Shown here: positions 33,209 to 49,323 of the stretch, piece after piece
How the letters are laid out: each line of letters opens with the position of its first letter
How positions within the stretch are numbered: the stretch's first letter is position 1
DNA from: a virus
Direction: 5' to 3' (one strand)
Length of the DNA: 64,000 nucleotides
IMG/VR virus record: IMGVR_UViG_3300020477_000014
Span: 1-64,000 of that record
Translations under genes and position numbers: made by a program
The notes under the pieces: generated by a model
What the model was told of the DNA's origin: nothing
Seen by the model: only the letters and a program-made list of their open reading frames with translations
Database searches by the model: none

Positions 33209-34458
33209 GAAAAAAAATACTAGTTAAGGGACCGGTCTTAACGCGTTCTGGATATGGAGAGCAATCAAGATTTTTATTGCGATCGTTGCGATCGCGAGAG
33301 GATCTCTTTGATATATACATACAACCAATCGATTGGGGCAAGACGTCTTGGTTGCCGGAATATGATGAAGAGCGCAATTGGATTGATTTTCGGATTAAGG
33401 AGACGATTGCCTATATTCAGTCTCAAAACCCTTTCGACATATCGGTTCAAGTCACCATCCCTAATGAATTTCAAGTTTTGGCTCCCATCAATATAGGATA
33501 TACGGCTGGAATAGAGACTAATAAGATTTCCCATGAATGGATTCAACATACTAATCAAATGGACAAGGTTATTGTTGTTTCTAATCATTCTAAAAAGATT
33601 TTCGAAACAACCACCTACGAGGCTACTCACAACCAAACCAATCAGCCTCTTGTTCTTAAGACTGAGAAACCAGTCGTGGCAGTTAATTATCCAGTAAAAC
33701 AGTATCAGTCTTTACCAGAGATAGAGTTGGATCTCAAGAATGATTTCAATTTTTTGTGTGTTGCTCAAATGGGCCCTCGAAAAAATATTTTCAATACTAT
33801 TCAGTGGTTTGTTCAAGAGTTTCATGATGACGAAGTAGGACTAGTTTTGAAGACAAATAAGGCACGAAATTGTCTTATAGATAGAGAATATATTTTCCAA
33901 GATCTCGTAGGGTTTTTAAATACAAAATTTCCCGATAGAAAATGTTCAGTTTATTTGTTGCATGGAGATATGACTGATGAGGAAATGCATTCTTTGTATA
34001 ATCATTCTAATATATCGGCTTTTGTATGCTTAAGTCATGGTGAGGGCTTCGGTCTCCCGTTTTTTGAAGCTGCTTATACAGGCATTCCTGTTGTTGCGCC
34101 GGGATATTCCGGACAAAATGATTTCTTGTTTGGTGAAACTGGAAAAGAAAATTTCTATAATGTTTCTTTTGATATGGCTCCAATTCCGGAAGAGGTGGTG
34201 TGGGATAAAATCTTAATTAAGGATTCTATGTGGGCAGTGCCCCGCGAACAAAGTGCAAAAGAAATGATGCGCCAATGTTATGAGGACGTCCAAAACAACA
34301 CTGGTATAGCTGCCAATAGCATACAATATTCAACAGAACTGCGTGAGCGATTTAATGCTGAGAAAATGTACGCTCAGATGGTTGATGCAATTGTGGATAA
34401 AGAGTCTGTAGAAAAAATGCAAGCTGACATTGATCAATTGTTGGAAGATTTATTATAA
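33205..34458 (+). CDS. glycosyltransferase, GT4-like
   Basis: 417 residues from GTG 33205 (GGAGG at 33196, GTGA overlap). N-terminal GPVLTRSGYGEQSRFLLRSL is the acceptor-domain Gly loop, also found in the preceding protein. The C-terminal ISAFVCLSHGEGFGLPFFEAAYTGIPVVAPGYSG has the E-x7-E donor motif. The two genes look like distant paralogues. The sugar is unknown. Confidence 0.87.
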   Translation: MRKKILVKGPVLTRSGYGEQSRFLLRSLRSREDLFDIYIQPIDWGKTSWLPEYDEERNWIDFRIKETIAYIQSQNPFDISVQVTIPNEFQVLAPINIGYTAGIETNKISHEWIQHTNQMDKVIVVSNHSKKIFETTTYEATHNQTNQPLVLKTEKPVVAVNYPVKQYQSLPEIELDLKNDFNFLCVAQMGPRKNIFNTIQWFVQEFHDDEVGLVLKTNKARNCLIDREYIFQDLVGFLNTKFPDRKCSVYLLHGDMTDEEMHSLYNHSNISAFVCLSHGEGFGLPFFEAAYTGIPVVAPGYSGQNDFLFGETGKENFYNVSFDMAPIPEEVVWDKILIKDSMWAVPREQSAKEMMRQCYEDVQNNTGIAANSIQYSTELRERFNAEKMYAQMVDAIVDKESVEKMQADIDQLLEDLL

Positions 34459-35316
34459 ATGTCTCAAGTTATATTTTTGTCCGATATGTTTGTGGAACAA
34501 TACGCCGGCGGAGCAGAGCTTACTAGTGAATCTATCATTAAGGCTGCTCCCGAAGGCATTATTATTAAGAAAATTCTTACTTCTACTTTGACGCAGAGGA
34601 TGATCGATCATCATAAAGAGTATTTGTGGGTAATTTGCAATTTTGCTGGCTTATCGGATGAGTTTAAAATATATTTTTGTAAGAATAAGATATCTTATAC
34701 TATTATTGAATATGATTATAAATTTTGTAAATATCGCTCCATGGAGAAACATGAGTATGCAGAGGGAAAAGCATGCGATTGTAATGAACTCCCGTTTGGT
34801 AAAATTAATAAAATATTTTATGGATATGCAAAACAGATTTGGTTTATGAGTGCCAAACAACAAAATATTTTTCACGATAAAGTACAGACTATTAAAGAAG
34901 AAAATACCAGCGTGTTGTCTTCTATTTTTGCCGATGGCGATTTGAGGTTTATTGACAACATTCGTCATAATGAAAAGAATTCTAAATATATTATTTTGCA
35001 ATCTCCTTCTTGGATCAAGGGAACAGGAGAGTGTGTAGAATATGCTAAATCTCATAATTTGGATTTTGATTTGGTCCATAATCTACCGTATCCCGAGTTG
35101 TTGATAAAACTCTCTCAATCCCGCGGACTTATATTTAGACCTTTAGGGGGAGACACATGCCCTCGAATTGTGATTGAGGCAAAGTTGCTGGGTTGCGAAT
35201 TGGTTTTAAATGGAAACGTGCAACACAAAGACGAAAAATGGTTCAATGCCAGCTATGAAGAGATGGTTGCCTATCTTAAAGGTCGTGCTAGTGTTTTTTG
35301 GAAGCATTATGAATAA
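34459..35316 (+). CDS. putative glycosyltransferase
   Basis: 285 residues. VIFLSDMFVEQYAGGAELTSESIIKA resembles the GT-B N-terminal GG(A/S)E loop, and SPSWIKGTGECVEYAKSHNLDF plus FRPLGGDTCPRIVIEAKLLGCELVLN resemble the donor half with a changed E-x7-E. A Cys-containing stretch (EGKACDCNELPFG) is unusual. It is shorter than its two neighbours, so part of the acceptor domain is reduced. It overlaps the next gene by eight bases. Confidence 0.65.
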   Translation: MSQVIFLSDMFVEQYAGGAELTSESIIKAAPEGIIIKKILTSTLTQRMIDHHKEYLWVICNFAGLSDEFKIYFCKNKISYTIIEYDYKFCKYRSMEKHEYAEGKACDCNELPFGKINKIFYGYAKQIWFMSAKQQNIFHDKVQTIKEENTSVLSSIFADGDLRFIDNIRHNEKNSKYIILQSPSWIKGTGECVEYAKSHNLDFDLVHNLPYPELLIKLSQSRGLIFRPLGGDTCPRIVIEAKLLGCELVLNGNVQHKDEKWFNASYEEMVAYLKGRASVFWKHYE

Positions 35317-35998
35317 GAAAACTATAATTTTAATGGGGAACGGTCCATCCCTGAAGGACGTAGACTTTTCGTTGTTAGATGGTTACGATACTTTTGGTCT
35401 CAATTCGGCATATCGCGCATATGAAAGAATGGACTGGTGGCCTACTTATCACGGCTGTTTTGATTATAGAGTTACAGATAATCATAGGAGCAAATTCGAG
35501 GACTTGATAACCAACAGTCCTATTAAGAAATGTTTCTATATTCGTGATTTTGGAACAAATGATGGGTTTCAATATGTAAACTTGCAACAATATGGTACAA
35601 CGCAAAAGTTCAATAATTCGCTAGCTGATTTTGATTCATTTCATGATAATGGAAATTCAGGCGCCAATGCTAGTTCAGCGGCTGTTTGCATGGGTTACAA
35701 TAGGATCATACTTTTGGGCGTAGATTGCAATTATGTAGAATTCGTCGACGGCTCCCAACGAGATGGTCCGGGGCTGAAAATGGAGAAAACGCCCGAACAT
35801 AATCCTAATTATTGGTTTGATGATTACCAGCAAAAGGGCGATGAATACAATATTCCTCGAGGGATGGATTTTCATATGCCTACCTGGAATGCGTTTGCTT
35901 ACAATGCTGCTCATAATAATATAGAAGTCATTAATTGCAGCCCCATTACCACCTTAAGGTGCTTTAAGAGAATGAACATAGAGGAAGCGCTAAGGTGA
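35309..35998 (+). CDS. NGPSLK-type transferase (DUF115/GT42-like)
   Basis: 229 residues from ATG 35309. The start KKTIILMGNGPSLKDVDFSLLDGYDTFGLN matches the nucleotide-binding loop of DUF115 proteins and of GT42 sialyltransferases (AGNGPSL). GNSGANASSAAVCMGYNRIILLGVDCNY is the second conserved block and HNPNYWFDDYQ the third. The same blocks form the C-terminal half of the protein at 38707, so the two are paralogues. It may transfer a CMP-activated sugar; a CMP-sugar synthetase lies at 41502. Confidence 0.7.
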   Translation: MNKKTIILMGNGPSLKDVDFSLLDGYDTFGLNSAYRAYERMDWWPTYHGCFDYRVTDNHRSKFEDLITNSPIKKCFYIRDFGTNDGFQYVNLQQYGTTQKFNNSLADFDSFHDNGNSGANASSAAVCMGYNRIILLGVDCNYVEFVDGSQRDGPGLKMEKTPEHNPNYWFDDYQQKGDEYNIPRGMDFHMPTWNAFAYNAAHNNIEVINCSPITTLRCFKRMNIEEALR

Positions 35999-36405
35999 TA
36001 AGGATTTATTCAAAAATAGAACCAGATTTATTATTACATGTGATCAATAGATTCTCTGAGATTGACGGTCGAACTGAAGTTATTCCGGCAGATAATTTTT
36101 TACAATGCGCTACACTGAAGATGGAGAAGGGTAAAACTTTTGCCCCTCATTATCATATAAAAAAGGAAAGAACCTATACCGAACAAATTGCACAAGAATC
36201 GTGGATTGTAGTAAGGGGTGCTGTCAAATGTATATTGTATGACATAGATCACACTATTGTAGCCACTCCGATATTGTATGCTGGAGATGCAAGCTACACA
36301 TTGCATGGAGGGCACACTTATGAGATTCTGGAACACGATACAATAGTTTATGAATATAAGACGGGACCCTATGAAGGGCAAAAGTTCGATAAGGTGTTGA
36401 TATGA
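35995..36405 (+). CDS. cupin-fold protein
   Basis: 136 residues from a GTG in the overlap with the previous gene. KMEKGKTFAPHYHIKKERTYTEQ and SWIVVRGAVKCILYD, then YTLHGGHTYEILEHDTIVYEYKTGPY, are the two cupin motifs with His ligands. Small cupins in glycan loci are often sugar epimerases/isomerases or sensors (WxcM-like). Reaction unassigned. Confidence 0.7.
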   Translation: MIRIYSKIEPDLLLHVINRFSEIDGRTEVIPADNFLQCATLKMEKGKTFAPHYHIKKERTYTEQIAQESWIVVRGAVKCILYDIDHTIVATPILYAGDASYTLHGGHTYEILEHDTIVYEYKTGPYEGQKFDKVLI

Positions 36406-36944
36406 TTAAAATAAATATGGGCTGTGGGTGGAGAAATTTTGGCAATGATTGGACCCATATCGATGCCGGCAACTATGATCATTTGAATTATAAAAGTATA
36501 ATAAACTTAAGTCAATTTCAAGACAATTCTGTTGGTTTAATTTACTCTTCTCATGTTATTGAATATTTTGATCGTACAGAAGTGATCCCTTTATTACAAG
36601 AGTGGAAAAGAATTTTGAACAAGGGTGGCACTCTAAGAATAGCAGTCCCTAATTTTGAAGCTATCGCTACTTTATATTCAAAAGGAAAAATTCCCCTTGA
36701 TAGAGTCTTGGGTCCACTTTACGGAAGAATGCAGATGTCTGATTGCACGATTTATCACAAAACAGTTTATGATTTCGTTTCTTTGAAAGAATTATTAGTG
36801 GAGCTTGGTTTTTCAAAAGTAAAAAAATATAATTGGCGGAAAACGGATCATGCCATATTTGACGATTATTCCCAAGCATATCTTCCCCACATGGATAAAG
36901 AAAATGGAACTTTAATAAGTTTAAATGTTGAGTGTGTTAAATGA
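36402..36944 (+). CDS. SAM-dependent methyltransferase
   Basis: 180 residues. KINMGCGWRNFGNDWTHIDAG is the SAM-binding motif I (G-C-G, then acidic D). IYSSHVIEYFDRTEVIPLLQEWKRILNKGGTLRIAVPNF is the typical post-motif helix and strand of class I methyltransferases acting on sugars or small molecules. It overlaps neighbours by four bases on both sides. Confidence 0.8.
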   Translation: MIKINMGCGWRNFGNDWTHIDAGNYDHLNYKSIINLSQFQDNSVGLIYSSHVIEYFDRTEVIPLLQEWKRILNKGGTLRIAVPNFEAIATLYSKGKIPLDRVLGPLYGRMQMSDCTIYHKTVYDFVSLKELLVELGFSKVKKYNWRKTDHAIFDDYSQAYLPHMDKENGTLISLNVECVK

Positions 36945-37534
36945 GTTTTGAGATAATTCAAAAATTTGAAAAAGAGATTGCTCGTTTTTATGGAGCCCCA
37001 TATGCTGTAGCTGTCGATTGTTGCACTCATGCAATCGAACTTTGCCTAAGACAGCAAAGCATAAAGCACTACACAGTTCCCAAAAGAACTTATATATCTG
37101 TTCCGTTTTTGGCTGATAAATTAGGCATAAACTTTGATTGGCGAAATGAGGAATGGCAAGATTATTATTACCTCGGAGGGACAAATATTATCGATGCTGC
37201 GGTTCTTTGGAGAGAGAATTCTTATATACCAAACACCTTTATGTGTGTTAGTTTTCAATATAGAAAACATTTATCTTTAGGAAGGGGAGGAATTATCTTG
37301 ACAGATAACAAAAAAGATGTTATATTATTAAAAAAGATGTCTTATGATGGTCGCTTGCCTGATGTTCCCTGGCGGGAACAGGACATTGACACAATGGGGT
37401 ATCACTATTACATGACACCGGAAACAGCAAATCTTGGTTTGCAAAAATTACCAAATGCCATAAAAACAAAACCAAAACAATGGATAGTGACAGATTGGCC
37501 AGATTTAACAAAAATGGAGATTTTTAAAAAATGA
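36941..37534 (+). CDS. short DegT/DnrJ-type PLP aminotransferase
   Basis: 197 residues, about half the usual 370. The N-terminal PLP domain is recognisable: PYAVAVDCCTHAIELCLR, YTVPKRTYISVPFLADKLG, and the Schiff-base region SFQYRKHLSLGRGGIILTD with K109 in place. The C-terminal small domain is mostly missing. It could still bind PLP and act as a sugar aminotransferase with a partner, or be a degraded copy. A full promoter lies inside its 3' part (37298). It overlaps both neighbours. Confidence 0.65.
   Translation: MSFEIIQKFEKEIARFYGAPYAVAVDCCTHAIELCLRQQSIKHYTVPKRTYISVPFLADKLGINFDWRNEEWQDYYYLGGTNIIDAAVLWRENSYIPNTFMCVSFQYRKHLSLGRGGIILTDNKKDVILLKKMSYDGRLPDVPWREQDIDTMGYHYYMTPETANLGLQKLPNAIKTKPKQWIVTDWPDLTKMEIFKK
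37298..37326 (+). promoter_or_regulatory. intragenic sigma70-type promoter
   Basis: TTGACA (37298-37303), 17-base spacer ending in TGT, TATATT (37321-37326), identical in form to the best intergenic promoters. It lies inside the short aminotransferase gene, 205 bases before the GDP-mannose dehydratase start, which it could drive separately. Confidence 0.55.
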
Positions 37535-38502
37535 AAAAAGCTTTAATTACCGGTATTGCCGGTCAAGACGGAAGCTATCTAACAGAACACTTGCTTTCCA
37601 TGGGATATGAAGTTCATGGTATAGTTCGACGGCATTCGGTGGCAGAGAATCAAAATTTTCGCTTACACCGATTAGGATCCGAACCTAATGTGTACACTTA
37701 TTATGGTGATTTGCTGGATTACCCTTCACTAGTTAGAATAATTTCGATAGTGAAGCCAGACGAGATTTATAATCTTGGTGCCATGAGTCACGTAAGGGTT
37801 AGTTTCGATATGCCTTCTTTTACAATTCAAACAAACGCCTTGGGTGTTTTAAACATGCTTGAAGTTTACAGAACTCTTTCCCCGGAAGCGAAATTCTATC
37901 AAGCTAGTTCTTCTGAGATGTTCGGAAACTCAGTTGATTCTGACGGTGTTCAGAGGCTTACTACTCCTATGAACCCAGTCAGCCCCTATGGGTGCGCTAA
38001 AGTTATGGGGTATAATTTAGTTAGACACTATCGACATGCTTACAAATTACATGCATGCAATGGAATTCTATTTAATCACGAATCCCCCCGACGAGGCTCT
38101 AACTTTGTGACCAATAAGGTTGTCAAAGGAGCCGTCTCTATCAAGAAGGGACTTCAAGACAAACTTGAGCTTGGCAATATGGACTCATCCCGGGATTGGG
38201 GTCATTCAAAAGATTATGTTAAGGCTATGCACATGATAATAAACCATGACACCCCCGAAGAATTTATTGTTGCAACCGGAGAAACACACTCAGTGAGAGA
38301 TTTGTGCGATGTGGTATTTTCTAAATTGGGAATGAACTATGCAGATTATATTGTTCAAAATCCGAAATATATGAGACCAGAAGAATTGAGATATCTAAAG
38401 GGAGACCCCTCGAAGGCTCATACAGTCTTGGGGTGGAAGCCAGAATATACTTTTGAAACAATGATAGAGGAAATGATCGAAAGATGGGAAAAAGAACTAT
38501 AA
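37531..38502 (+). CDS. gmd: GDP-mannose 4,6-dehydratase
   Basis: 323 residues, normal length. KALITGIAGQDGSYLTEHLLSMGYEVHGIVRRHS is the family's NADP-binding start (G-x-x-G-Q-D-G-S-Y). QASSSEMFGN, the catalytic Y-x-x-x-K in SPYGCAKVMGYN, LFNHESPRRG and SRDWGHSKDYV are all diagnostic. It turns GDP-mannose into GDP-4-keto-6-deoxymannose, the precursor of fucose, rhamnose, perosamine and related sugars. With phosphomannomutase at 24764 it gives the core of a 6-deoxyhexose route. Confidence 0.95.
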   Translation: MKKALITGIAGQDGSYLTEHLLSMGYEVHGIVRRHSVAENQNFRLHRLGSEPNVYTYYGDLLDYPSLVRIISIVKPDEIYNLGAMSHVRVSFDMPSFTIQTNALGVLNMLEVYRTLSPEAKFYQASSSEMFGNSVDSDGVQRLTTPMNPVSPYGCAKVMGYNLVRHYRHAYKLHACNGILFNHESPRRGSNFVTNKVVKGAVSIKKGLQDKLELGNMDSSRDWGHSKDYVKAMHMIINHDTPEEFIVATGETHSVRDLCDVVFSKLGMNYADYIVQNPKYMRPEELRYLKGDPSKAHTVLGWKPEYTFETMIEEMIERWEKEL

Positions 38503-38714
38503 AGAAATTCAACCGCGGCGACTTGGTGAAATGGTATGAGGTATACAATGATGTCTACATTACCAAAGATTATGGAACCGGAATCGTGATGGAGAGAATG
38601 GAACAAAATTACGGCTTCATCGATGGACCGGTTACTACCTACAGGGTATATAGATTAAAATATAGTGATATTGTTTTGTATGGGTCGGACTTAATAGAGG
38701 AAATAAATGAATAA
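38484..38714 (+). CDS. small SH3-like protein
   Basis: 76 residues: KKFNRGDLVKWYEVYNDVYITKDYGTGIVMERMEQN ... TYRVYRLKYSDIVLYGSDLIEEINE. A full GDLV/GIV/YRVYRL member of the small-barrel family, set inside the glycan operon with overlaps on both sides. This suggests that the family serves a general rather than a glycan-specific role. Confidence 0.65.
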   Translation: MGKRTIKKFNRGDLVKWYEVYNDVYITKDYGTGIVMERMEQNYGFIDGPVTTYRVYRLKYSDIVLYGSDLIEEINE

Positions 38715-40371
38715 AAGATTATGCGTGTTGCAGGTCACTCCTACCGAACCTAATAGGGATCATATCGAATTATTTCACAATAAAAAAGATTGTGATTTTT
38801 ATTTTGTAACACATGATAGCCAACATGCTGATGCATTAAAATTTTGTCCCAACACTACGTGGACAGATACAAGAAATATATTAGCTGAAATGGTTCCTAA
38901 AAAATATGATTATTATGCTTTTGTGGATTATGATTATCGTTTTCATCCCCAAGGCGATCTTGGGGTACTTGAGCAGATATTGTCTGATTTAGAACATTTC
39001 AATCCAGCAGTTTTGACTTGTTATCCGGGTTCTGGGCTTATAACTCCCTTTGCTTCCGATATGGATTATAAAAACAAACATACCCACTCTGTAATACCTT
39101 TTACGCATTGTGGAATGAAGGTGGTCCACCATAGCCTTATGAATTGGTTTTTCCCAATGGTTACGAAATTTGGTGGTGGAGTGGAAGCATGTCATCTTTT
39201 TAACATAATGGAGCTTCCTTTTTTGCAAAATATTGTTTGCACTCATCAAATTGTATATGATAATGGAGTTACTGACATGAATGCGCCACACAATCGCGAT
39301 GGTGCACAATCTAAATTGAACATGGACAAGATGTGGTCATGGTTGTATCCTTATTTTAACAAAAGAAAAACCCTAAGAGATAAAGAAGTAAAACTCAGGT
39401 GGGGCGACAGTATCCCAACACGTATCGAGGAATACACTTCATATACTAATTCACTAACAATTAAAGAGACGTACGTCGGCTTATTGACTGGAAAAGTGAT
39501 TCCCAGTCCGGCAGAAAAAGAGGTAGATTATTACAGTTTAAAATATAAAGATAAAATTAAGAAGTTTTTCGATATAAATCATGAACATTTTGCTCCCAAA
39601 TTTGGAAATCTAAAATCTAGAAATGATACAATTGTTATTGTAGGAAATGGACCTTCTTTAAAAGAGGAATATTTCGAGATTTTACGACGCGATGATATTG
39701 ATACTTTCGGATTGAACGTTGCATATCGTTTTTTTGAGAAGATGAATTGGTATCCTAAGTTTTATGGATGTTTTGATTACGCTGCCACGAACACCCACAG
39801 ATCCAGTATTGCCTCTTTTATACGAGATAAGGATTGTCCTATAGAAAAGTTTTTCTTATTGGAAAGACCTAGTATCGAGGCAAGACTAAGCAACACTAAG
39901 TTGTATTTCGATGAGGACGTCCGCGGCGATCGTAAATATGTAGAAAGACCCCATAATCAAGACGGAATCGGATGGCCCACGTGGGGCACCAGGAATAATA
40001 AGATATCTTGCACGGGCGCAAATGCAATTCGCACCGCAATGGAATTAGGATACAAAAAGATTATTTTAATTGGTCATGATGCCAGCTACACTCCTTCGAA
40101 AAAAATCGAGGGACATTCTCAAGTATCGTCGGACAGATATGAGGTGACGGAAAAATCTCAAAATCCTAATTATTTTTGGCAAGATTATTACGAGAAGGGA
40201 GATATTTATAATAAGCCGGGGGATGCATTACCTGCATGGAAAAATATGGCTGATTGTGTAAGCCAAACTTATCCACATGTGGATGTAGTTAATTGCTCGA
40301 AGAACTCTAGAGTAACTTTTTTTCGGTTTGGTGAGTTTTTTAAAGAGATTGGGGTAAAAAATGAAGACTAA
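38707..40371 (+). CDS. two-domain transferase: N-terminal GT-like plus NGPSLK-type domain
   Basis: 554 residues. Residues 1-225 form an unassigned GT-A-like domain: RLCVLQVTPTEPNRDH, YYAFVDYDYRFHP (a possible D-x-D-type metal site), and GVEACHLFNIMELPFL. Residues about 305-550 repeat the protein at 35309: IVIVGNGPSLKEEYFEILRRDDIDTFGLN, FYGCFDYAATNTHRSS, CTGANAIRTAMELGYKKIILIGHDASY, QNPNYFWQDYYEKGD and VVNCSKNSRVTFF. A bifunctional polymerising transferase is possible. ATG 38707 overlaps the previous gene. Confidence 0.75.
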   Translation: MNKRLCVLQVTPTEPNRDHIELFHNKKDCDFYFVTHDSQHADALKFCPNTTWTDTRNILAEMVPKKYDYYAFVDYDYRFHPQGDLGVLEQILSDLEHFNPAVLTCYPGSGLITPFASDMDYKNKHTHSVIPFTHCGMKVVHHSLMNWFFPMVTKFGGGVEACHLFNIMELPFLQNIVCTHQIVYDNGVTDMNAPHNRDGAQSKLNMDKMWSWLYPYFNKRKTLRDKEVKLRWGDSIPTRIEEYTSYTNSLTIKETYVGLLTGKVIPSPAEKEVDYYSLKYKDKIKKFFDINHEHFAPKFGNLKSRNDTIVIVGNGPSLKEEYFEILRRDDIDTFGLNVAYRFFEKMNWYPKFYGCFDYAATNTHRSSIASFIRDKDCPIEKFFLLERPSIEARLSNTKLYFDEDVRGDRKYVERPHNQDGIGWPTWGTRNNKISCTGANAIRTAMELGYKKIILIGHDASYTPSKKIEGHSQVSSDRYEVTEKSQNPNYFWQDYYEKGDIYNKPGDALPAWKNMADCVSQTYPHVDVVNCSKNSRVTFFRFGEFFKEIGVKNED

Positions 40372-40795
40372 AAACGATAGTGATCTAAAGAGAGTGCTGG
40401 AAAAGGACGGCGTTCATTGTTTGGAATTAAAGAAATATGAAAATTGTTCTACTATAAATTTAGCTGAATTGAGAGAAGATTTGGGCATGGGGTCTTGGGC
40501 AGTGAGAATTGCTTACAACGATCTTTTTGGTGGAGTAGTCATTCAGCAACAGCCCGGCGAGGGAAATCGAAAACACTTCCATCATGATGCAGACGAGAAT
40601 TGGGTAATTTTAGATGGAGAGTGGGAATGGTGGATTGATGGCATTGGAAAACGCCGAGTGAAACAACATGATATAATAGTAGTGCCCCGAGGCGTTTGGC
40701 ACCAAATAACGTGCATAGGAGATTCGCCAGGAGTACGGTATGCAATTACACGACCGGATGTAGACCATGTATACGAAGACAACAACGATAAATAA
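40361..40795 (+). CDS. cupin-fold protein
   Basis: 144 residues. QQQPGEGNRKHFHHDADENWVILDGEWEWWIDG is cupin motif 1 (H-x-H with Glu) and QHDIIVVPRGVWHQITCIGDSPGVRYAITRP is motif 2 (P-x-G-x-x-H). Complete metal site, single domain. Probably a sugar-modifying enzyme or binding protein of the locus. It overlaps the gene before by 11 bases and the SDR after by up to 29. Confidence 0.78.
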   Translation: MKTKNDSDLKRVLEKDGVHCLELKKYENCSTINLAELREDLGMGSWAVRIAYNDLFGGVVIQQQPGEGNRKHFHHDADENWVILDGEWEWWIDGIGKRRVKQHDIIVVPRGVWHQITCIGDSPGVRYAITRPDVDHVYEDNNDK

Positions 40796-41501
40796 TATTA
40801 CTTTTAATTATTCTAACAAGATTGTGGTAGTAGTAGGGGGATCCCGTGGCATTGGCAAGGAAATCTGCAAGCAATTTGTTTTGGCTGGCGCTACGGTCTA
40901 TTGTTTATCACGAACGCCGCTTAATACAAAAGGAGTGACACACATTGTGTGTGATATATCTATCGAGAAAGATATTGACAAAGCTATCGCACAATTGGAG
41001 TCTATTGATTTTTTGATTAATGTAGCCGGCACCAACTTATGTGAGCCGATTGAAAATATAACAACCACAGAATGGGACCGGCTGATGAACACGAATTTGA
41101 AATCGTTTTTTTTGATTTCTAAAAAGGTGATTCCTTTGATGAAGGAGAAGAATTCCGGTCGCATTGTTAATGTCTCTTCTATTGCCGGCAGACATAAGAG
41201 CGTGGTTAGCGGCGTACATTATACATCTAGCAAATATGGTATTGTGGGATTAACTAAGCAGTTGGCACATGAGGTATCTCGATATAATATTTTGGTAAAC
41301 TGCGTGTGCCCAAGCCAAACAAGAACTGAAATGTTGGAAGCTTCCATGACTGAGGAACAGTTGCATAATTTAGAAAAACAAATTCCTGTACGTCGAATTG
41401 CTACCACTGTTGAGCAATCGTTACCTGTGTTGTTTCTTTGTTCTGATGGTGCTTCTTACATTAGTGGCGCTACAATCGATATTAACGGGGGTCAATTCTA
41501 A
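40767..41501 (+). CDS. short-chain dehydrogenase/reductase (SDR)
   Basis: 244 residues, classical SDR: VVVVGGSRGIGKEICKQF (TGxxxGxG type), LINVAGTN (NNAG variant), VNVSSIAGRHKSV with Ser, then YTSSKYGIVGLTKQLAHE (Y-x-x-x-K), and SGATIDINGGQF. It reduces a keto group or oxidises an alcohol with NAD(P)H, in this locus most likely on a sugar or acyl group. The first 15 residues overlap the cupin gene, so the start may be later. Confidence 0.9.
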   Translation: MYTKTTTINNITFNYSNKIVVVVGGSRGIGKEICKQFVLAGATVYCLSRTPLNTKGVTHIVCDISIEKDIDKAIAQLESIDFLINVAGTNLCEPIENITTTEWDRLMNTNLKSFFLISKKVIPLMKEKNSGRIVNVSSIAGRHKSVVSGVHYTSSKYGIVGLTKQLAHEVSRYNILVNCVCPSQTRTEMLEASMTEEQLHNLEKQIPVRRIATTVEQSLPVLFLCSDGASYISGATIDINGGQF

Positions 41502-42179
41502 ATGCATAGGGATATAGATATAAACGTTTTGATTGCTGTTAGAGGCGGTTCTAAGCGCATTCCTGGAAAGAATACGAGACCTTTCGGGGGAGCCTCGATG
41601 CTTGAATTGAAAATTCAACAAGCTCTTCGATTAAAAGAAGTATCTGCGGTGGTGGTGACGTCAGAAGATGACTCCATGTTGCAGATAGCAGAAGATCTGG
41701 GAGCAGTTGCTATGAAGAGGGATTCTTATTATGCTAGCGATACGGTTCCAATGGGAGAAGTATATGTTCATCTTGCGTCATCTCTTAGTTGTAAGGATGT
41801 TTTGTGGACGCCGGTCACAAGTCCATTGGTGACCGATAAAACCATACAAGAGTGTATAACTTTTTATAAAACCAGGCCAGAGTTTGATTCTGTAGTAACC
41901 ACCAATCTGGTCAAGGAATATATGTGGTTGGGCGATAAAGCCATCAACTATGATCCACTGAATCATCCCAGATCCCAGGATTTGCCGGATGTTTATGCTT
42001 TGAATTTCGCAGCCAACATTCTTTCCCGCGAGATGATGATCAAAAACAGGAACATTATAGGAGATAAATTTTATCCTTATATGATAGACGATGTTGAATC
42101 TGTGGACGTGGATACTGAATTTGATTTTGTGATAGCAGAGTTTTTATATAATAACAGAGGAAAAGATTGTGACATATAA
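41502..42179 (+). CDS. CMP-sugar synthetase (acylneuraminate cytidylyltransferase type)
   Basis: 225 residues. NVLIAVRGGSKRIPGKNTRPFGGASMLELKIQQAL is the CTP-binding signature (R-x-G-S-K-x-(I/L)-P-x-K-N); VVVTSEDDSMLQIAEDLGA and RDSYYASDTVP continue it, and DVESVDVDTEFDFVIAE is the metal-binding end. It activates a 2-keto acid sugar such as a sialic, legionaminic or Kdo-like acid as CMP-sugar. No NeuB-type synthase is seen; the aldolase at 46864 is one possible alternative source of a keto-acid. Confidence 0.9.
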   Translation: MHRDIDINVLIAVRGGSKRIPGKNTRPFGGASMLELKIQQALRLKEVSAVVVTSEDDSMLQIAEDLGAVAMKRDSYYASDTVPMGEVYVHLASSLSCKDVLWTPVTSPLVTDKTIQECITFYKTRPEFDSVVTTNLVKEYMWLGDKAINYDPLNHPRSQDLPDVYALNFAANILSREMMIKNRNIIGDKFYPYMIDDVESVDVDTEFDFVIAEFLYNNRGKDCDI

Positions 42180-42843
42180 GATAGAGGTACCCCCAATGTG
42201 CGAACCGGAAATCTTGCCAAAAGTAATACCATATTTTAAAAACCGATCTAAATTTGTGGATGTTGGGGCATCTGATGGCTGGTATACATATGTTGCCGCC
42301 AAGGAAATGCCATCAGGTTCGACAATAATTGGTTTCGAACCGGTACCATGGATTTTTGACAAATACAAGAATCATTATGTTGCATCTTGGGCGCCAGAGG
42401 ATTGGTTTAAAAACAAAACAATACACTGTTATAACCAAGTGGTTTCGGATCAATCCGGAATAGATACAAAGTTTTATAAAACAAAAAACCATTCAGGAGT
42501 TATGGATCCTCTTTTATTACTAAAAAAACCAGAAGCTTTTGAGGAAAGTTGGGATATTCCAACGACTAAGTTGGATGATTTTTTGGATCCTTCTGAAAAG
42601 GGAGTATTAATAAAAATTGACGTGGAAGGCGGTGAAGATAAGGTTATCAAGGGCGGTAACTATTATTTTTCCAATTGTGTAGAGTGTTATGTGTTTTTAG
42701 AATTGCACAATTCTTATCTCTTAAATAAAGGAGTGCCGCCACAAACCGTTGTGAAATATTTCACAGATCGAGGTTATGAAAAAATTAAATTAGGTGGCCA
42801 CGGGCGAATCGAATGGTATATTTTTAGGAAAGAAATCAAATGA
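42169..42843 (+). CDS. FkbM-family methyltransferase
   Basis: 224 residues, GTG start overlapping the previous stop. KFVDVGASDGWYTYVAAKEMPSGSTIIGFEPVPW is SAM motif I of the FkbM type (FEP after the acidic strand). TTKLDDFLDPSEKGVLIKIDVEGGEDKVIKGG is the diagnostic D-V-E-G-x-E block. FkbM enzymes O-methylate sugars and polyketides. It fits late decoration of the glycan. Confidence 0.9.
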   Translation: MTYKIEVPPMCEPEILPKVIPYFKNRSKFVDVGASDGWYTYVAAKEMPSGSTIIGFEPVPWIFDKYKNHYVASWAPEDWFKNKTIHCYNQVVSDQSGIDTKFYKTKNHSGVMDPLLLLKKPEAFEESWDIPTTKLDDFLDPSEKGVLIKIDVEGGEDKVIKGGNYYFSNCVECYVFLELHNSYLLNKGVPPQTVVKYFTDRGYEKIKLGGHGRIEWYIFRKEIK

Positions 42844-43778
42844 GAAATATCAAGATCTTTATTGTTACATATAAGAGGGGAGATGTCCTAAATAATACTT
42901 TGCAAAAGTTATTCAAAGAAACCGATTTCTCCTTAATACCGAATACCGAAGTTAATATTATTAATAATCATTCAGATTTTTGGATTGATGATGAATTTCG
43001 GGACCAAGTGAATGTTATACACAATTCTACGCGCCCCGATTGGGATGTTGGTAATCTCGCACGTAATTGGAACGAAGCACTTTTGCACGGCTTTAAAGAT
43101 TTAAAAAACCCAGACTCTAAGGTGGTGGTAACGATGCAGAACGACATTGTTTTGCACCCCAATTGGGCCACCAATTTGCTTAAAATGCATAAAAAATATA
43201 ATTTCATAACTGGTTGCGCAGGTGATAATATTATTAGTTATACGGCGGAGGCAGTGAAGAAGATCGGATTATGGGACGAAAGGTTTTGTTCCATATCTCA
43301 CAAAGAAGCCGATTATTATATTAGAGCGCTTATTTATAACAAAGAATATTCCATTATAAATGATCAGTTTCATAAGCGTTATCTAAATGCAGACGCATGG
43401 CTTCCTTTGGATACTGGTGATTACTTAGGCAATGAAAAAGAATGGATGAAGATAAAAGCCACCAACTTGTCTACAGAAGCAATGAACCATAGCACTCAGA
43501 TATTTTACTGGAAATGGAAAAACACATGGAAGACTCAACCTTCTTATAATGGATGGTTCGTTAATTGGTCGTCGGATTTTATAACCGATCCGCCATCTCC
43601 CCCGACCGTTCCGAATTTCATAAAATATTATTATTTTGAAAAAGATCTTGACAATTTGCAAAAAAAGAATTATATTGGTTGGAGAAGTGGCGATCTTTGG
43701 TTGAGATCTACGGGGAACCTGGACATTGATGAACTTCCACCTCCCAGAGAATCAACTACAGGAGAAATTTCGAAATGA
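42840..43778 (+). CDS. glycosyltransferase, GT2-like (GT-A fold)
   Basis: 312 residues. KIFIVTYKRGDVLNNTLQKLF is the GT2 start, VNIINNHSDFW the next strand, NLARNWNEALLHGF the conserved helix, and VVTMQNDIVLHPNW holds an N-D-I in the D-x-D metal position. ETD-like HKEADYYIRALIYN follows. The C-terminal 100 residues are Trp/Tyr-rich and specific to this protein. Overlaps of four bases on both sides. Confidence 0.82.
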   Translation: MRNIKIFIVTYKRGDVLNNTLQKLFKETDFSLIPNTEVNIINNHSDFWIDDEFRDQVNVIHNSTRPDWDVGNLARNWNEALLHGFKDLKNPDSKVVVTMQNDIVLHPNWATNLLKMHKKYNFITGCAGDNIISYTAEAVKKIGLWDERFCSISHKEADYYIRALIYNKEYSIINDQFHKRYLNADAWLPLDTGDYLGNEKEWMKIKATNLSTEAMNHSTQIFYWKWKNTWKTQPSYNGWFVNWSSDFITDPPSPPTVPNFIKYYYFEKDLDNLQKKNYIGWRSGDLWLRSTGNLDIDELPPPRESTTGEISK

Positions 43779-44470
43779 TAACTACTAAAAATTTACAAAT
43801 AATAGACACTGCGCAAACTCTTTATGATGCTTTTAACGATTTTATTTTGAGCGACGATACCAAAGTGTTCGGAAAATTACTCGCAAGAGCCATTTTGCTC
43901 GATCGAGTAAAAGATGTTCCTGGTGATATAATAGAGTGTGGTGTTTTTAAAGGGACCGGTGTTGTTTCTTTTCTAAAAATAAAAAAATATTTATGCCCCA
44001 ATTCTCATAAAAAAGTTATTGGTTTTGATTTTTTTGATACTGACGGATTGTTAAAAAGCCTATCAAACCAAGACCAAGAGGCTATGAGTGCATTATTCAA
44101 AGATAGAGGATTCGAACATGAGCAGGGATTTGTTTCTTATTTAAAGCAGTCAATTGAATCCTTTGGGTTTCAAGAGCACGAATTTGAACTTGTACAAGGA
44201 GATATTTCAAAAACTATAAAAGAATATATATCCGATAAGCCTGGATTGAAAATTTCTCTTTTATATATTGATTTAGATATTGAAAAGCCAACTTATGATG
44301 TTTTGTGCGCCACTTGGGATAGAATGTCGAAGGGGGGCATGATAGTGTTTGATGAATATGCATATCATTGCTGGTCGGAGTCGATTGGTGTGGATAGGTT
44401 TTTCAAAGATAAGAATGTAGTAGTGAGGTCTCTAAATTTCATGGGACCCACAGCATATGTAATAAAATAA
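43775..44470 (+). CDS. TylF/macrocin-type O-methyltransferase
   Basis: 231 residues. RAILLDRVKDVPGDIIECGVFKGTGVVSFLKI is the TylF SAM-binding block (E-C-G-V-x-x-G). VIGFDFFDTDG, LKISLLYIDLDIEKPTYDVLCATWDRMSKGGMIVFDEYAYHCW gives the metal-binding D-x-D and D-E-Y. Family members methylate sugar hydroxyls. Third methyltransferase of the locus. Confidence 0.87.
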   Translation: MITTKNLQIIDTAQTLYDAFNDFILSDDTKVFGKLLARAILLDRVKDVPGDIIECGVFKGTGVVSFLKIKKYLCPNSHKKVIGFDFFDTDGLLKSLSNQDQEAMSALFKDRGFEHEQGFVSYLKQSIESFGFQEHEFELVQGDISKTIKEYISDKPGLKISLLYIDLDIEKPTYDVLCATWDRMSKGGMIVFDEYAYHCWSESIGVDRFFKDKNVVVRSLNFMGPTAYVIK

Positions 44471-44483
44471 AAAGAGAACAAAC

Positions 44484-45215
44484 ATGAATATATTGATACC
44501 AATGGCTGGCGAAGGCAGTCGATTTAAAAAAGAAGGCTTTAAAAAACCAAAACCACTAATAGACGTTAACGGAAAACCTATGATTAAGTGGGTTGTGGAT
44601 AATGTCGGAATTGACGGAAAATATATTTTTATCGTACAAAAGGCACATACAATAAAGTACCCATATTTAGTTGATGAGCTTACAACTATGGCAAAGGACG
44701 TAGAGGTGTTGACGGTAGATGGATTAACAGAAGGCGCCGCATGTACAGCATTGATAGCCAAACACTTGATAGACAATGACGAGCCATTACTAATTTGCAA
44801 TTCAGATCAGTGGGTGGATTGGGTCCCAGAACATTTTTTAAAATTTATAAAGAGAAAAGATTGTGATGGGGCATTATTAACTTTTTTCTCTGATAGTCCA
44901 AAGCATTCTTATTCTCGATACAATTATAATACCAGAGTGGTAACAGAAGTTGCCGAAAAACAAGTTATAAGCAATTTTGCCACTGTGGGAATATATTATT
45001 GGAGAAAGGGTAGCGAATTCGTGGAATGTGTTAATAAAATGATAGACAAGAATCTAAGAGTTAATAATGAATTTTATTTATGCCCAGCCTATAATGAGTT
45101 GATTTTCCACAAAGACGGGAAGGTGGAATTGTATCCTATTTGTGAGATGAGGGGAATGGGTACTCCTATGGAATTAGAAAGGTTTTTACTCTTATTAGAG
45201 AAAGAAGGCGTTTAA
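44484..45215 (+). CDS. sugar-1-phosphate nucleotidyltransferase
   Basis: 243 residues. MNILIPMAGEGSRFKKEGFKK then PKPLIDVNGKPMIKWVVDN is the G-x-G-x-R-F...K-P-K binding start of the RmlA/GalU-like family. LICNSDQWVDW replaces the usual L-x-G-D metal site. Unlike RmlA it is short and lacks a C-terminal beta-helix. It charges a sugar-1-P with NTP; mannose-1-P to GDP-mannose is one candidate since no other guanylyltransferase is seen. It overlaps the RuBisCO-like gene by one base. Confidence 0.85.
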   Translation: MNILIPMAGEGSRFKKEGFKKPKPLIDVNGKPMIKWVVDNVGIDGKYIFIVQKAHTIKYPYLVDELTTMAKDVEVLTVDGLTEGAACTALIAKHLIDNDEPLLICNSDQWVDWVPEHFLKFIKRKDCDGALLTFFSDSPKHSYSRYNYNTRVVTEVAEKQVISNFATVGIYYWRKGSEFVECVNKMIDKNLRVNNEFYLCPAYNELIFHKDGKVELYPICEMRGMGTPMELERFLLLLEKEGV

Positions 45216-46399
45216 TGAAGTTTTTTCGTCAAAGTGTAGAAAAAGAGAAATACATCATAGTGGAGTATTTTTTAAAAAGCAAGACCACATTGAGAGATGC
45301 TGCATGGTCTTTGGCAATAGGTCAAAGTGTAGGAAACCCCAATGTCAGAAATCATTGGGAAACCGATGAGCTTTTTGAGAACCATTCTTGTTTGATTATG
45401 GGTGATGAAGAGAAGTTAAAACAAATAAGCGAAGGTAAAGTTAAAATAGCCTTTCCAATAGCAAATACAGACTTTAAGACAGATGGAGTGTCTCATTTGC
45501 TTTGTCAATTTATGGGCGGACAAATGGATATAGATATTGTTCAAAAATGCCACATGTTGAATGTAGTACTACCTCAGCATGTTGAAGATAAATATTTTTT
45601 AGGACCAAAATACGGCATTGAAGGTATCAGAGATTTTACTAATAGTCACGATAAGCCTCTTTTTGGAGGGATTGTTAAGCCCAAGATTGGCGTTACAAGT
45701 AGCGTGTTGCTTGAAATGGTACGAGAGATGGTAGAGGGGGGCATCAATTTCATCAAAGAAGATGAGATCATGTCAAACCCTGCTTGTTGCCCAATAGAAG
45801 AAAGAGTACCTTTAATTATGGATTATCTCAAAGGCAAGGATGTGATTTATGCTGTTTGTATTAATTGTGATCCGCTGCATGTTATTGATAGAGTTAAAAG
45901 AGTTCATGAATTAGGAGCCAACGCTGTCCATATCAATTTTTGGAGCGGACTTGGAGTTTATAAATCAATTAGAGAATTGGATTTGCCAATGTTTATTCAC
46001 TTTCAAAAAAGTGGCGACAAAGTATTAACAAACAAGAATCATGATTATCATATTTCTTGGGACGTTGTGTGTGATCTGGCAGGTCTTATGGGTGTGGATT
46101 TTATACACGCTGGAATGTGGGGTGGCTACATGTCAGATAATGAACAGGAATTAAAGAACACTTTATCTGTTTTGCACAACAGGAGTGTAATGCCGGCTCT
46201 AAGTTGCGGAATGCATGCAGGTCTAATTCAAGCAATAAACAAAAGATTTGGAACAAATTATATGGCTAATGTCGGCGGCGCTATACATGGACACCCTAAC
46301 GGCTCTAAAAGTGGCACCATGGCGATAAGACAGAGTGTAGATGGCGAACATGGACAAGAATATGAAATTGCGATAAAAAAATGGGGGATCGTAAAGTGA
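45215..46399 (+). CDS. RuBisCO-like protein (form IV type)
   Basis: 394 residues, the RuBisCO large-subunit fold. FGGIVKPKIGVTSSVLLEMVREMVEGGINFIKEDE gives the K-P-K loop (K155, K157) and the carbamylatable Lys with metal ligands (K181, D183, E184). NPACCPIEERV, FIHF (H262), VDFIHAGMWGG (H298 region), ALSCGMHAG and NVGGAIHGHPNGSKSGTMA follow in family order. The Arg after H262 and the loop-6 Lys needed for carboxylation are absent, so it should not fix CO2. Known RuBisCO-like proteins do enolase, isomerase or decarboxylase/transcarboxylase chemistry on sugar-phosphate-like substrates. It starts one base inside the nucleotidyltransferase gene. Confidence 0.88.
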   Translation: MKFFRQSVEKEKYIIVEYFLKSKTTLRDAAWSLAIGQSVGNPNVRNHWETDELFENHSCLIMGDEEKLKQISEGKVKIAFPIANTDFKTDGVSHLLCQFMGGQMDIDIVQKCHMLNVVLPQHVEDKYFLGPKYGIEGIRDFTNSHDKPLFGGIVKPKIGVTSSVLLEMVREMVEGGINFIKEDEIMSNPACCPIEERVPLIMDYLKGKDVIYAVCINCDPLHVIDRVKRVHELGANAVHINFWSGLGVYKSIRELDLPMFIHFQKSGDKVLTNKNHDYHISWDVVCDLAGLMGVDFIHAGMWGGYMSDNEQELKNTLSVLHNRSVMPALSCGMHAGLIQAINKRFGTNYMANVGGAIHGHPNGSKSGTMAIRQSVDGEHGQEYEIAIKKWGIVK

Positions 46400-46429
46400 C
46401 TGACATTTTTTGGAGAACCATTAGTGAAA

Positions 46430-46867
46430 ATGATTGCACATAGAGGAAATCTCAGAGGGCCGAACCCGGACCAAGAGAATAAACCAGAGTATATAGAGGC
46501 GGCATTGGCGGAACACTACGATGTGGAAGTGGACGTATGGCGATCTGAAAACAAGTGGTATCTAGGTCACGACGAACCACAATATGAGATAGATTCAGAA
46601 TTTCTCGTAAATGAGAGAATATGGTGTCATGCAAAGAATTTACATGCATTTCAAGATTTGTTGGTATTAGATGCGCATTGTTTTTGGCACCAAAAGGATG
46701 ATTATACCTTGACAAGTAGTAATTTTATTTGGGCGTATCCTGGCCAACCATTGTCGCCGATGTCCATTTGTGTAATGCCTGAATTAACAGCTTATACCAC
46801 AACAGATGTCTTAAGGTGTGCCGGGATCTGTTCCGATTGGATAGAGAAATTTGGGGAAATTTTATGA
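46430..46867 (+). CDS. GDPD-like (glycerophosphodiester phosphodiesterase fold) protein
   Basis: 145 residues (GTG 46424 possible). MIAHRGNLRGPNPDQENKPEYIEAAL has the family H-R-G and E-N metal start; YDVEVDVWRSENKWYLGHDEPQYEI gives E-x-D and the second catalytic His. The rest (NERIWCHAKNLHAFQDLL, FWHQKDDYTL) is a shortened TIM barrel; full GDPDs have about 240-300 residues. It would cleave or bind a phosphodiester, perhaps a glycerol-P linked glycan. It overlaps the aldolase by four bases. Confidence 0.75.
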   Translation: MIAHRGNLRGPNPDQENKPEYIEAALAEHYDVEVDVWRSENKWYLGHDEPQYEIDSEFLVNERIWCHAKNLHAFQDLLVLDAHCFWHQKDDYTLTSSNFIWAYPGQPLSPMSICVMPELTAYTTTDVLRCAGICSDWIEKFGEIL

Positions 46868-47544
46868 TATTGGCTTGGCAGCAAATTCCTTCTCCAATGG
46901 TTTCAGAGATCTTGTGTTGTAATTCTGCTGGCATAGTGTTGGATTTGGAACATGGGTGTTTTAATAATGAGACTCTTTACACTTGTATTCAAATTATTAA
47001 ATCTAAAAATAAAAAATGCATAGTTAGGCTGACAGAAGTTTCCAAAACAATAATTCGCTATTGTTTGGATGCCGGCGCTGATGGATTAATTTTTTCTACA
47101 ATTGAAACAACAGAACAATGTGAAAAAATAATGGAATATAGCTACTATGCTCCCAAGGGCAAGCGAGGCTTGGGGTTGGTCCGCCAAAATCTATGGGGTG
47201 AGAAAAACCTTTTGTCACCAGATCCTATTATTATACCCCAAATCGAAACAAAGGATGCTGTGGATAATTTGGAAAACATCTTAAAATTTAATTTCGATTA
47301 TTATTTAATAGGCCCTTATGATCTGTCTTTAAGTTTAAAAATCCCGGGAAAATTTGACAATCCTCAATTTATATGTTATATTAATAAAGTGAATGAATTG
47401 ATAGAAAGGTCCAGGCTGGCAGTTCATATTCCCAATGACGTTCCTAATCAAATTAGCAAATATAGGGATTATGGAATAAAATGCCTGGGCATGGACACGA
47501 TAGGGCTATTAGAATATATGAAGGAGAACAACAAGCATGCTTAA
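46864..47544 (+). CDS. HpcH/HpaI-family aldolase
   Basis: 226 residues from ATG 46864 (GGGGAAA upstream). SAGIVLDLEHGCFNNETLYTCIQI holds the catalytic His and acidic residue; KKCIVRLTEV the Arg strand; LDAGADGLIFSTIETTEQCEKIM the phosphate/metal region; RGLGLVRQN; PIIIPQIETKDAVDNLENIL the Q-x-E-T metal site; and YYLIGPYDLSLSL the G-x-x-D-L-(S/A). These enzymes join or split pyruvate (or similar) and an aldehyde, giving 2-keto-3-deoxy acids. The RuBisCO-like and SIS-HAD neighbours suggest one pathway. A promoter lies in the 3' part. Confidence 0.87.
   Translation: MILAWQQIPSPMVSEILCCNSAGIVLDLEHGCFNNETLYTCIQIIKSKNKKCIVRLTEVSKTIIRYCLDAGADGLIFSTIETTEQCEKIMEYSYYAPKGKRGLGLVRQNLWGEKNLLSPDPIIIPQIETKDAVDNLENILKFNFDYYLIGPYDLSLSLKIPGKFDNPQFICYINKVNELIERSRLAVHIPNDVPNQISKYRDYGIKCLGMDTIGLLEYMKENNKHA
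47354..47382 (+). promoter_or_regulatory. intragenic sigma70-type promoter
   Basis: TTGACA (47354-47359), 17-base spacer ending in TGT, TATATT (47377-47382). Inside the aldolase gene, 155 bases before the SIS-HAD start. Same consensus as the promoters at 17917, 29085 and 37298. Confidence 0.55.
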
Positions 47545-48514
47545 TTTCGAAAATTTAGGAGAAAGATTTGTTCAAGTAGTTAACGGATCGGATTGGCTAG
47601 AATTACAAGAAAAATTTAACAAATGTGATGACATATACGTGTTGGGTCATGGAGGAAATTTAGCCGTGGCTGATCATGCTGCTGTAGATATTACTCGCTT
47701 ATCTAACGGACAAAAGAATGCTATTTGCCCCAGTAGTGGTGTTGTAGCCACCTCTTTTATCAATGACACCAATTTTGAGCAGTGGATGGTAAATTGGTTA
47801 TCTTGTCGTACCAATACGAGAACTGAAGCACAAATGAAGAAATCGTTAGTACTGGGAATATCGTCTTCTGGCGCCTCTATCGATGTTTTAAAAGCACTAC
47901 AGTGGGCGAATGACAACGGGATGGAAATAGGGATGATTAGCTCCAAGGATCTTACTTATGATATTTCTAATTTGACTAAAGTTATATTGGGCGCCGAATA
48001 TTACCACACCGCAGAGGTTCTAACACTTCTTTTAACCTACCAACTAACTCATGGATCAGGGAAAGAGTGCCCCCCTATAGGACAAAATACTCCTGATGCA
48101 TTGCGCGCACTAAACTGGAAAGGGGGTCACATCCGGGAACACAGCTATCCGGATGAAAAAATTAATTTAGGAATCGATTTTGATAAAGTGATTCATGGTT
48201 GTTCGCGAGGATATTATGATGGCACTATTTATGATCCCCCTATTCATGGAGCCGCCGAGGCACTTGAAAAATTATCTCAAAGTTATACTTTAATTATTTA
48301 TACCTGTAAAGCCAAGCCAGATCGTGGACTTGTGAATGGAAAAACAGGAACAGCTTTAGTTTGGGAATGGCTAGAAAAAAATAATCTTTCTCAATTTGTA
48401 AGTAAAGTTACAGCAGAAAAGCCACGAGCAGTGTGCTATATTGACGACAAGGCTGTACGATTTATCGATTGGGAATCTTGCATGAAAGAGTTGGAGGAAA
48501 TAGGCATTCTATGA
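47537..48514 (+). CDS. SIS isomerase - HAD fusion protein
   Basis: 325 residues. Residues 1-190 form a SIS domain like GmhA: YVLGHGGNLAVADHAAVDITRLS, SGVVATSFINDTNFEQW, SLVLGISSSGASIDVLKALQWA, ILGAEYYHTAEVLTLLLTYQ. Residues about 210-325 form a reduced HAD unit: INLGIDFDKVIHG (one Asp changed), YTLIIYTCKAKPD, KPRAVCYIDDKAVRFIDW. GmhA isomerises sedoheptulose-7-P and GmhB is a HAD phosphatase, so the fusion may link isomerisation and dephosphorylation of a ketose phosphate. It overlaps the neighbours by 8 and 4 bases. Confidence 0.8.
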   Translation: MLNFENLGERFVQVVNGSDWLELQEKFNKCDDIYVLGHGGNLAVADHAAVDITRLSNGQKNAICPSSGVVATSFINDTNFEQWMVNWLSCRTNTRTEAQMKKSLVLGISSSGASIDVLKALQWANDNGMEIGMISSKDLTYDISNLTKVILGAEYYHTAEVLTLLLTYQLTHGSGKECPPIGQNTPDALRALNWKGGHIREHSYPDEKINLGIDFDKVIHGCSRGYYDGTIYDPPIHGAAEALEKLSQSYTLIIYTCKAKPDRGLVNGKTGTALVWEWLEKNNLSQFVSKVTAEKPRAVCYIDDKAVRFIDWESCMKELEEIGIL

Positions 48515-49323
48515 TCTTGATAACAGGACATAAAGGCTATATCGGAAGTCATCTCTATAAGGCTTTAAAATCATTTGACATGGAAGTGTATGGGATTGAT
48601 TTAAAAGACGGTCACGATATCGCTTATTGTTTGCCTGATCGAGATTTCGATTATGTATTCCATCTAGCAGCACTACCACAAGTCGAATATTGCAACAAGC
48701 ACCCTAGTTATGCACTTAAGCAAAATGTGGGTGCAACTTCGATACTTCTCGAGTGGGCTTATGGACACAATGTCAAGAAGGTCATTTTTTCATCTTCAGC
48801 AGCAGTGTATGGCGATGGAGGTGGTCCTAAATCTCCTTATGGTTTACATAAGTTGATGGCAGAAATGGAGTGTAAACTATATTCAGATTTTTATAATATA
48901 GATACGGTTTGTTTGCGATATTTTAATGTATATTCAGAAGATCAACCGTACGGCGGCTCTTATTCTACGGTTATTGCAGCTTGGATGGAGATGATGAGGA
49001 ATGGTCATCCTTTGCGTTTGGATGGCACAGGCAAACAAACGAGAGACTTTGTTCATGTAGAAGATATAGTGGCTGCTAATATATTTTGCATGAAGAGTAA
49101 ATTAAAATTTAATGGAGAGTGTTATGATGTGGGCTCTGGTCAGTCGACTGCGCTTAACACTATAAAATATTATATCGATCATCGATATTCTAATGTGAGT
49201 TGGTTATGGACCCCTGAAAGAGAGGGAGACATCTTTAATTCGGTTGCTGACATATCTAAGTTGGCAGAAATAGGATGGACACCACAAATTGACATAAAGA
49301 CTGGCTTATCTAGATGTTTTTAG
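48511..49323 (+). CDS. NAD-dependent sugar epimerase/dehydratase
   Basis: 270 residues from ATG 48511 (GGAGG at 48493). MILITGHKGYIGSHLYKALKS is the extended-SDR NAD loop; FHLAALPQVEYCNKHPSYAL, IFSSSAAVYGDGG, SPYGLHKLMAEMEC (Y-x-x-x-K), CLRYFNVYSEDQPYGG and TRDFVHVEDIVAANI complete a GalE/WcaG-like enzyme. Slightly short. It epimerises or dehydrates an NDP-sugar. Last gene of the glycan locus. Confidence 0.9.
   Translation: MILITGHKGYIGSHLYKALKSFDMEVYGIDLKDGHDIAYCLPDRDFDYVFHLAALPQVEYCNKHPSYALKQNVGATSILLEWAYGHNVKKVIFSSSAAVYGDGGGPKSPYGLHKLMAEMECKLYSDFYNIDTVCLRYFNVYSEDQPYGGSYSTVIAAWMEMMRNGHPLRLDGTGKQTRDFVHVEDIVAANIFCMKSKLKFNGECYDVGSGQSTALNTIKYYIDHRYSNVSWLWTPEREGDIFNSVADISKLAEIGWTPQIDIKTGLSRCF

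Follow-up and report, generated by a model that had tools for sequence, protein, structure and literature searches.

Metagenomic studies have described rbcL or 'RbcL-like' genes in viruses and interpreted them as a means of CO2 fixation (PMC12607003, PMC12615777, PMC8506154). A landfill study reported a sequence that grouped with 'RbcL-like' proteins and also detected rbcL among IMG/VR entries sampled at random (PMC12607003), and a soil viral rbcL expressed together with rbcS was reported to carboxylate RuBP (PMC12615777). A 2007 GOS study had collected 65 marine RuBisCO homologues that fall outside every known form (PMC1821046). Other RuBisCO-like proteins (RLPs) enolise or isomerise ketose phosphates (PMC6302742).

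The window analysed here, a stretch of 64,000 nucleotides (positions 1 to 64,000 of IMG/VR record IMGVR_UViG_3300020477_000014), encodes an RLP within a phage glycan locus (Table 1). The protein matches Pfam RuBisCO_large with an E-value of 1.4e-34 (120 bits; cut-off 30.1), and the NCBIfam RuBisCO-superfamily models score 86-161 bits against it, every one far under its cut-off. Its AlphaFold model (pLDDT 89.7, pTM 0.89) has form III RuBisCO 3a12 as best Foldseek match in the PDB (TMq 0.85, E 1e-28), with MtnW 2oem next (TMq 0.84). Fold and family score both place the protein in the RuBisCO superfamily; judged from its residues, the protein counts as a form IV RLP in the broad sense, a superfamily member lacking those of a carboxylase. 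The first-pass annotation had called a 394-residue RuBisCO-like product here, with which the reading frame, the Pfam match and the predicted fold agree; structure prediction, one of the checks it had proposed, returned a RuBisCO fold.

Table 1. Features of the RLP locus in the window.
Feature	Coordinates	Strand	Basis
Sugar-1-phosphate nucleotidyltransferase, 243 aa	44484..45215	+	Pfam NTP_transferase 1.1e-7
RLP gene, 394 aa, ATG start	45215..46399	+	Pfam, AlphaFold model, Foldseek, tree, residue alignment
'HRG' protein, 147 aa, GDPD-like, HRGN/EN/ExD/GHD motifs	46424..46867	+	Alignment, profile match, model
HpcH/HpaI-type aldolase, likely start ATG 46864	46864..47544	+	Pfam HpcH_HpaI 7.3e-15
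Surrounding glycan locus	33157..49323	+	Pfam, NCBIfam, PHROGs matches

The annotation had also been aware of no described phage case, and this stands in part: viral rbcL has been published, as cited above, but no RLP homologue was found in 50,697 GenBank phage records, no family for it in PHROGs, and, with the RLP model as query, no viral protein of RuBisCO fold in BFVD (best TM about 0.4). The published genes resemble ours in being RuBisCO-superfamily genes on viral contigs; they were reported as CO2-fixing, whereas the clade, residues and glycan context presented below are undescribed there, a comparison made with their descriptions only. No account of these features was found in the searchable literature, which leaves aside most subscription papers and every bioRxiv preprint.

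In the reference RuBisCO/RLP alignment, K155-P156-K157 of the RLP align with spinach K175-x-K177, and K181, D183 and E184 occupy the positions of the carbamate lysine K201 and the metal ligands D203 and E204. Phosphate-loop positions S379, G381, G403 and G404 are filled by S330, G332, G354 and G355. At other active-site positions the residues have been replaced: the loop-6 lysine K334 by Tyr305, H294 by Gln264, R295 by Lys265, E60 by Gly36, N123 by Gly102, and the T65-W66 loop by Asn41-Pro42 plus one extra residue. H262 corresponds to spinach H292, the first histidine of the HxHR motif. The retention of the K-P-K loop, the carbamylatable lysine with its metal ligands and the late Gly-rich phosphate loops, as well as the loss of the loop-6 lysine, had been read correctly from the sequence at first pass. 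The arginine reported missing after H262 is indeed absent, but the register was two residues off, the R295 position being Lys265 and not the residue next to H262.

Conservation follows the same pattern. Among 139 distinct viral RLPs, K155, K157, K181, E182, D183, E184, Q264, S266, M301 and Y305 are invariant, whereas position 265 varies (97 Lys, 28 Ser, 14 Arg); Lys also predominates at this position across the RLP clade. Tyr305 and Gly102 are each found in 39/39 clade members in the tree described below. From the established roles of these residues, retention of the metal site and the enolising lysines together with loss of the CO2 side would imply proton-transfer chemistry without carboxylation.

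In an IQ-TREE phylogeny of 76 proteins, 17 viral and 22 cellular sequences group together as an RLP clade (support 100/100) that is distinct from forms I, II and III and from the OiaX-type, 3nwr-type, IV-photo and MtnW groups; a second, smaller tree agrees with this placement. The RLP thus falls outside the true carboxylases, as the earlier tree proposal had anticipated, and without an intact loop 6. Members of the clade score at least 309 bits and the next best sequences found at most 211 bits. Patescibacterial matches of 167-211 bits were considered as intermediates and rejected, the two that were checked being form III proteins with loop 6 intact. MtnW is the closest sampled group, a kinship that is unsure because MtnW is represented by a single long branch.

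Comparison with the described groups sharpens these differences. Form III RuBisCO provides the closest fold match (TM 0.85) and shares K175, K177, the metal site and the Gly-rich phosphate loops, but the RLP lies outside the form III clade, scores 161 bits with the form III model against a cut-off of 497, and lacks K334, E60, T65, W66, N123, H294 and usually R295. MtnW (form IV) resembles it in fold (TM 0.84), metal site and K175, and neither has the loop-6 lysine or E60; identity is about 25%, however, and the RLP keeps K177. The N-terminal lysine of MtnW at the N123 position, present in 2oej, serves as base and is absent from the RLP clade. The OiaX-type and related sugar-acid RLPs act on sugar phosphates, as is proposed for the phage protein, and share the metal site and K175; unlike the phage protein, the OiaX-type RLPs retain the loop-6 lysine and the HR motif, and their context is catabolic, with a VOC protein and a four-carbon acid sugar kinase.

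The clade is real, widespread and distinct, and it occurs in phage glycan loci. At least 337 IMG/VR stretches encode relatives of the RLP, and all 118 loci newly fetched with the clade motif G-x-[DN]-F-I-K-E-D-E-I carry a family member. IMG/VR was scanned for exact motif matches, form III and MtnW motifs being outside the scope of these scans: the clade motif retrieved at least 120 stretches, the canonical motif G-x-D-F-[IMT]-K-D-D-E five, none of them with a RuBisCO match, and the form II motif none. A single-sequence form I query of viral contigs likewise gave no match, its query patterns having fallen in variable stretches, so that the motif scans are the fairer comparison. With at least 120 RLP-motif stretches against zero RuBisCO by the canonical motifs tested, an 'rbcL' call in a virus need not indicate carbon fixation. 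Because at least 337 viral stretches carry what is predicted to be a non-carboxylating RLP, a viral 'rbcL' should not be presumed to fix carbon.

In cells the family is sporadic. A genome scan recovered 23 cellular loci, in SAR11, Patescibacteria, Bacteroidota, Verrucomicrobia, Elusimicrobia, Azospirillum, Legionella and DPANN archaea; the gene is present in 2/247 SAR11-order and 4/140 Legionella-order genomes, in 1/380 Patescibacteria (>300 bits) and in 1/199 Elusimicrobiota. Judged by its genes, one of these loci (L104) seems to be a phage contig that was assigned to a Bacteroidota MAG in binning. The clade is possibly linked to the 65 ungrouped GOS homologues.

The glycan locus of the window contains glycosyltransferases, FkbM and TylF methyltransferases, epimerases of the GDP-mannose dehydratase type and other NAD epimerases, a PseF-like CMP-transferase, an SDR and an MptE-like protein, a setting that bears out the first-pass description of a phage glycan locus. 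The stop codon of the nucleotidyltransferase gene overlaps the start of the RLP gene (TAATG), and that of HRG overlaps the likely aldolase start (ATGA). By profile searches, 80/81 viral and 21/23 cellular RLP loci contain the nucleotidyltransferase, 69/81 and 14/23 contain HRG (a putative mini-GDPD), and 53/81 and 7/23 a 107-aa cupin; these counts are not independent, as the loci are related by descent and include near-duplicates and truncated ones. Overlapping start and stop codons are frequent between the RLP and nucleotidyltransferase genes, in keeping with the coupling suggested at first pass, and the deep cellular branches from Elusimicrobia (L097) and Azospirillum (L099) hold the RLP, nucleotidyltransferase, cupin and HRG together. 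Gene order and strand differ among the loci. The neighbours that recur are glycan genes, not mtn or Calvin-cycle genes, and no sugar-acid-making dehydrogenase was found as a conserved partner across the loci. The aldolase is specific to the window locus, where any tie to the RLP would be putative. The conserved cupin is absent from the window, where the Cupin_2 gene at 40361-40795 is of another type.

HRG itself has no Pfam match; it gives a profile match to GDPD 3i10 (E 7e-4), and its model (pLDDT 94) a weak Foldseek match to 1o1z (TMq 0.58, E 0.15). Its homologues form a very short GDPD-like family of about 150 aa, below Pfam detection, in which HRGN, EN, ExD, GHD and CxD are invariant. In the Legionella loci of three species (L100, L102, L103) a divergently oriented LicD-family gene stands on the opposite strand beside the RLP and nucleotidyltransferase genes; LicD was rejected as a general partner, being confined to these three. 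Elsewhere in the glycan locus, positions 38707-40371 and 41502-42179 cover the MptE-like protein (PF01973), which also has a sialyltransferase-type PHROG match, and the nearby PseF-like CMP-transferase, and the two may point to a nonulosonic-acid-like sugar. A 197-aa DegT-type aminotransferase ORF at 36941-37534 matches part of its family and is possibly a fragment.

A related gene set without the RLP occurs in cyanophages. Bellamy (L140) and SynMITS9220M01 (L141) have a phage glycan locus with members of these nucleotidyltransferase, cupin and HRG families, but in place of the RLP it holds a nucleotidyltransferase-RpiB fusion (L140:4489-5646, L141) downstream of HAD and PfkB-like genes. In 72 related IMG/VR loci (L146-L217), RpiB is present in 61, where it is again fused to the nucleotidyltransferase in the company of the HAD, PfkB-like, cupin and HRG genes, and the RLP is present in none; the remaining 11 have neither the RLP nor detectable RpiB. 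Conversely, no RpiB was found among the RLP loci or on the phage record of the window, and no locus has both. HAD-nucleotidyltransferase fusions are present in several phages. In Synechococcus phage S-SKS1 (L145:4067-5494) the same nucleotidyltransferase family is fused to RibB (E 5.4e-65), a 3,4-dihydroxy-2-butanone-4-phosphate synthase, and a transaldolase gene lies nearby. Separate RibB and transaldolase genes also lie near the RLP in one locus (L080), so exchange between RLP and RibB is not exclusive. RpiB, a pentose-phosphate isomerase, and RibB, which removes formate from its substrate, both act on ribulose-5-phosphate. This shared substrate would make a pentulose phosphate the leading candidate for the RLP, by an indirect analogy through gene exchange, and RpiB in the cyanophage set thereby suggests which class of substrates could be assayed.

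We favour, somewhat above even likelihood, a metal-dependent, non-carboxylating RLP that performs proton transfer on a ketose phosphate and supplies its product to the nucleotidyltransferase for glycan synthesis. In this reading Mg2+ would be bound by carbamylated Lys181, D183 and E184, and a phosphorylated ketose would be enolised by lysines 155, 157 and 181. Having lost the CO2 side, the enzyme would be confined to proton transfer, as an isomerase or epimerase. The substrate would most likely be a pentulose phosphate or bisphosphate, and the product would pass to the coupled nucleotidyltransferase, which would turn it into a nucleotide-activated sugar or polyol phosphate that the glycan locus could use; the cupin and HRG would act in shared steps of this pathway. 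The order of steps, the substrate and the product we infer from what is observed of the fold, the residues, the clade, the conserved partners and the occurrence of RpiB where cyanophages lack the RLP. The parts of the proposal differ in strength. From its residues, the RLP is almost certainly a non-carboxylase, and a place in a nucleotide-sugar pathway is highly probable. The narrower assignment, proton transfer of the RpiB kind with a pentulose phosphate as substrate, is plausible but tentative; the PfkB and HAD genes of the cyanophage set, lacking in most RLP loci, count against it, as do the 11 cyanophage-type loci with neither gene. The cupin is missing from about a third of viral RLP loci, the window included, a further point against the favoured reading. 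It is a possibility of slightly less than even weight that most IMG/VR genes callable as rbcL belong to a mainly viral RLP clade with its own catalytic role in nucleotide-sugar biosynthesis, in which a RuBisCO-fold enzyme replaces a pentose-phosphate isomerase. For the RuBisCO superfamily, the clade adds a distinct branch with a conserved, testable pathway context.

Four other readings were weighed. That the RLP acts as an OiaX-kind decarboxylase or C-C cleaver, turning a 3-oxo sugar-acid phosphate into a shorter ketose phosphate for the nucleotidyltransferase, is unlikely, though less so than the other three, and has in its favour the fusion of formate-losing RibB to the same nucleotidyltransferase family in S-SKS1, the retained metal site and enolate-forming lysines, and the precedent of D-apiose-breakdown RLPs that decarboxylate or transcarboxylate 3-oxo-isoapionate-4-phosphate (PMC6302742). 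Against it stand the separate clade, the 121.6 bits obtained with the OiaX model where the cut-off is 700, and the lack of a conserved partner dehydrogenase that would produce a sugar acid. A little less probable still is mere neighbourhood, in which the RLP and the nucleotidyltransferase belong to separate pathways travelling in one glycan island. Such islands are mosaic, and the variation of gene order and strand would fit; yet the nucleotidyltransferase accompanies the RLP in nearly every locus, deep branches included, the genes often overlap, and most other neighbours show no such recurrence.

It is very improbable that the RLP is an MtnW-kind enolase for viral methionine salvage. No sampled group lies closer in the tree than MtnW, and MtnW ranks with the best PDB matches, but its branch is single and long, the MtnW models score 125.8 bits against a cut-off of 513.6 and 158.6 against 409, the position of its N-terminal lysine is glycine throughout the clade, and no mtn genes accompany the RLP as the glycan genes do. 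Least probable of all is the usual reading of viral rbcL, a CO2-fixing RuBisCO that boosts host carbon fixation. The RuBisCO fold, the carbamate site and K177 are intact, and activity has been reported for a soil viral rbcL in combination with rbcS (PMC12615777), a gene that may belong to another clade; the invariant tyrosine at the loop-6 position, the replacement of E60, T65, W66, N123 and H294, a position outside forms I-III and recurring partners from glycan rather than Calvin-cycle pathways all speak against it, and on predicted active-site residues and tree we reject CO2 fixation by the RLP.

The proton-transfer RLP favoured here is carried by a large, T4-like phage, whose record of 189,712 bp includes a gp23-type capsid protein and T4-type baseplate genes. 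Host contamination was rejected as the source of the gene, given the capsid and baseplate genes on the record and the presence of the family on hundreds of viral contigs, and cyanophage identity found no support, psbA not being found on the record. The nearest match to a baseplate gene is from Microcystis phage Mel-JY01, at 33% identity. Just before the baseplate genes, positions 53327-59779 hold an ORF of 2150 aa with no Pfam or PHROGs match. At 18710-19047, ARAGORN called a tmRNA gene with the tag ANNNNHYDEVRLAA.
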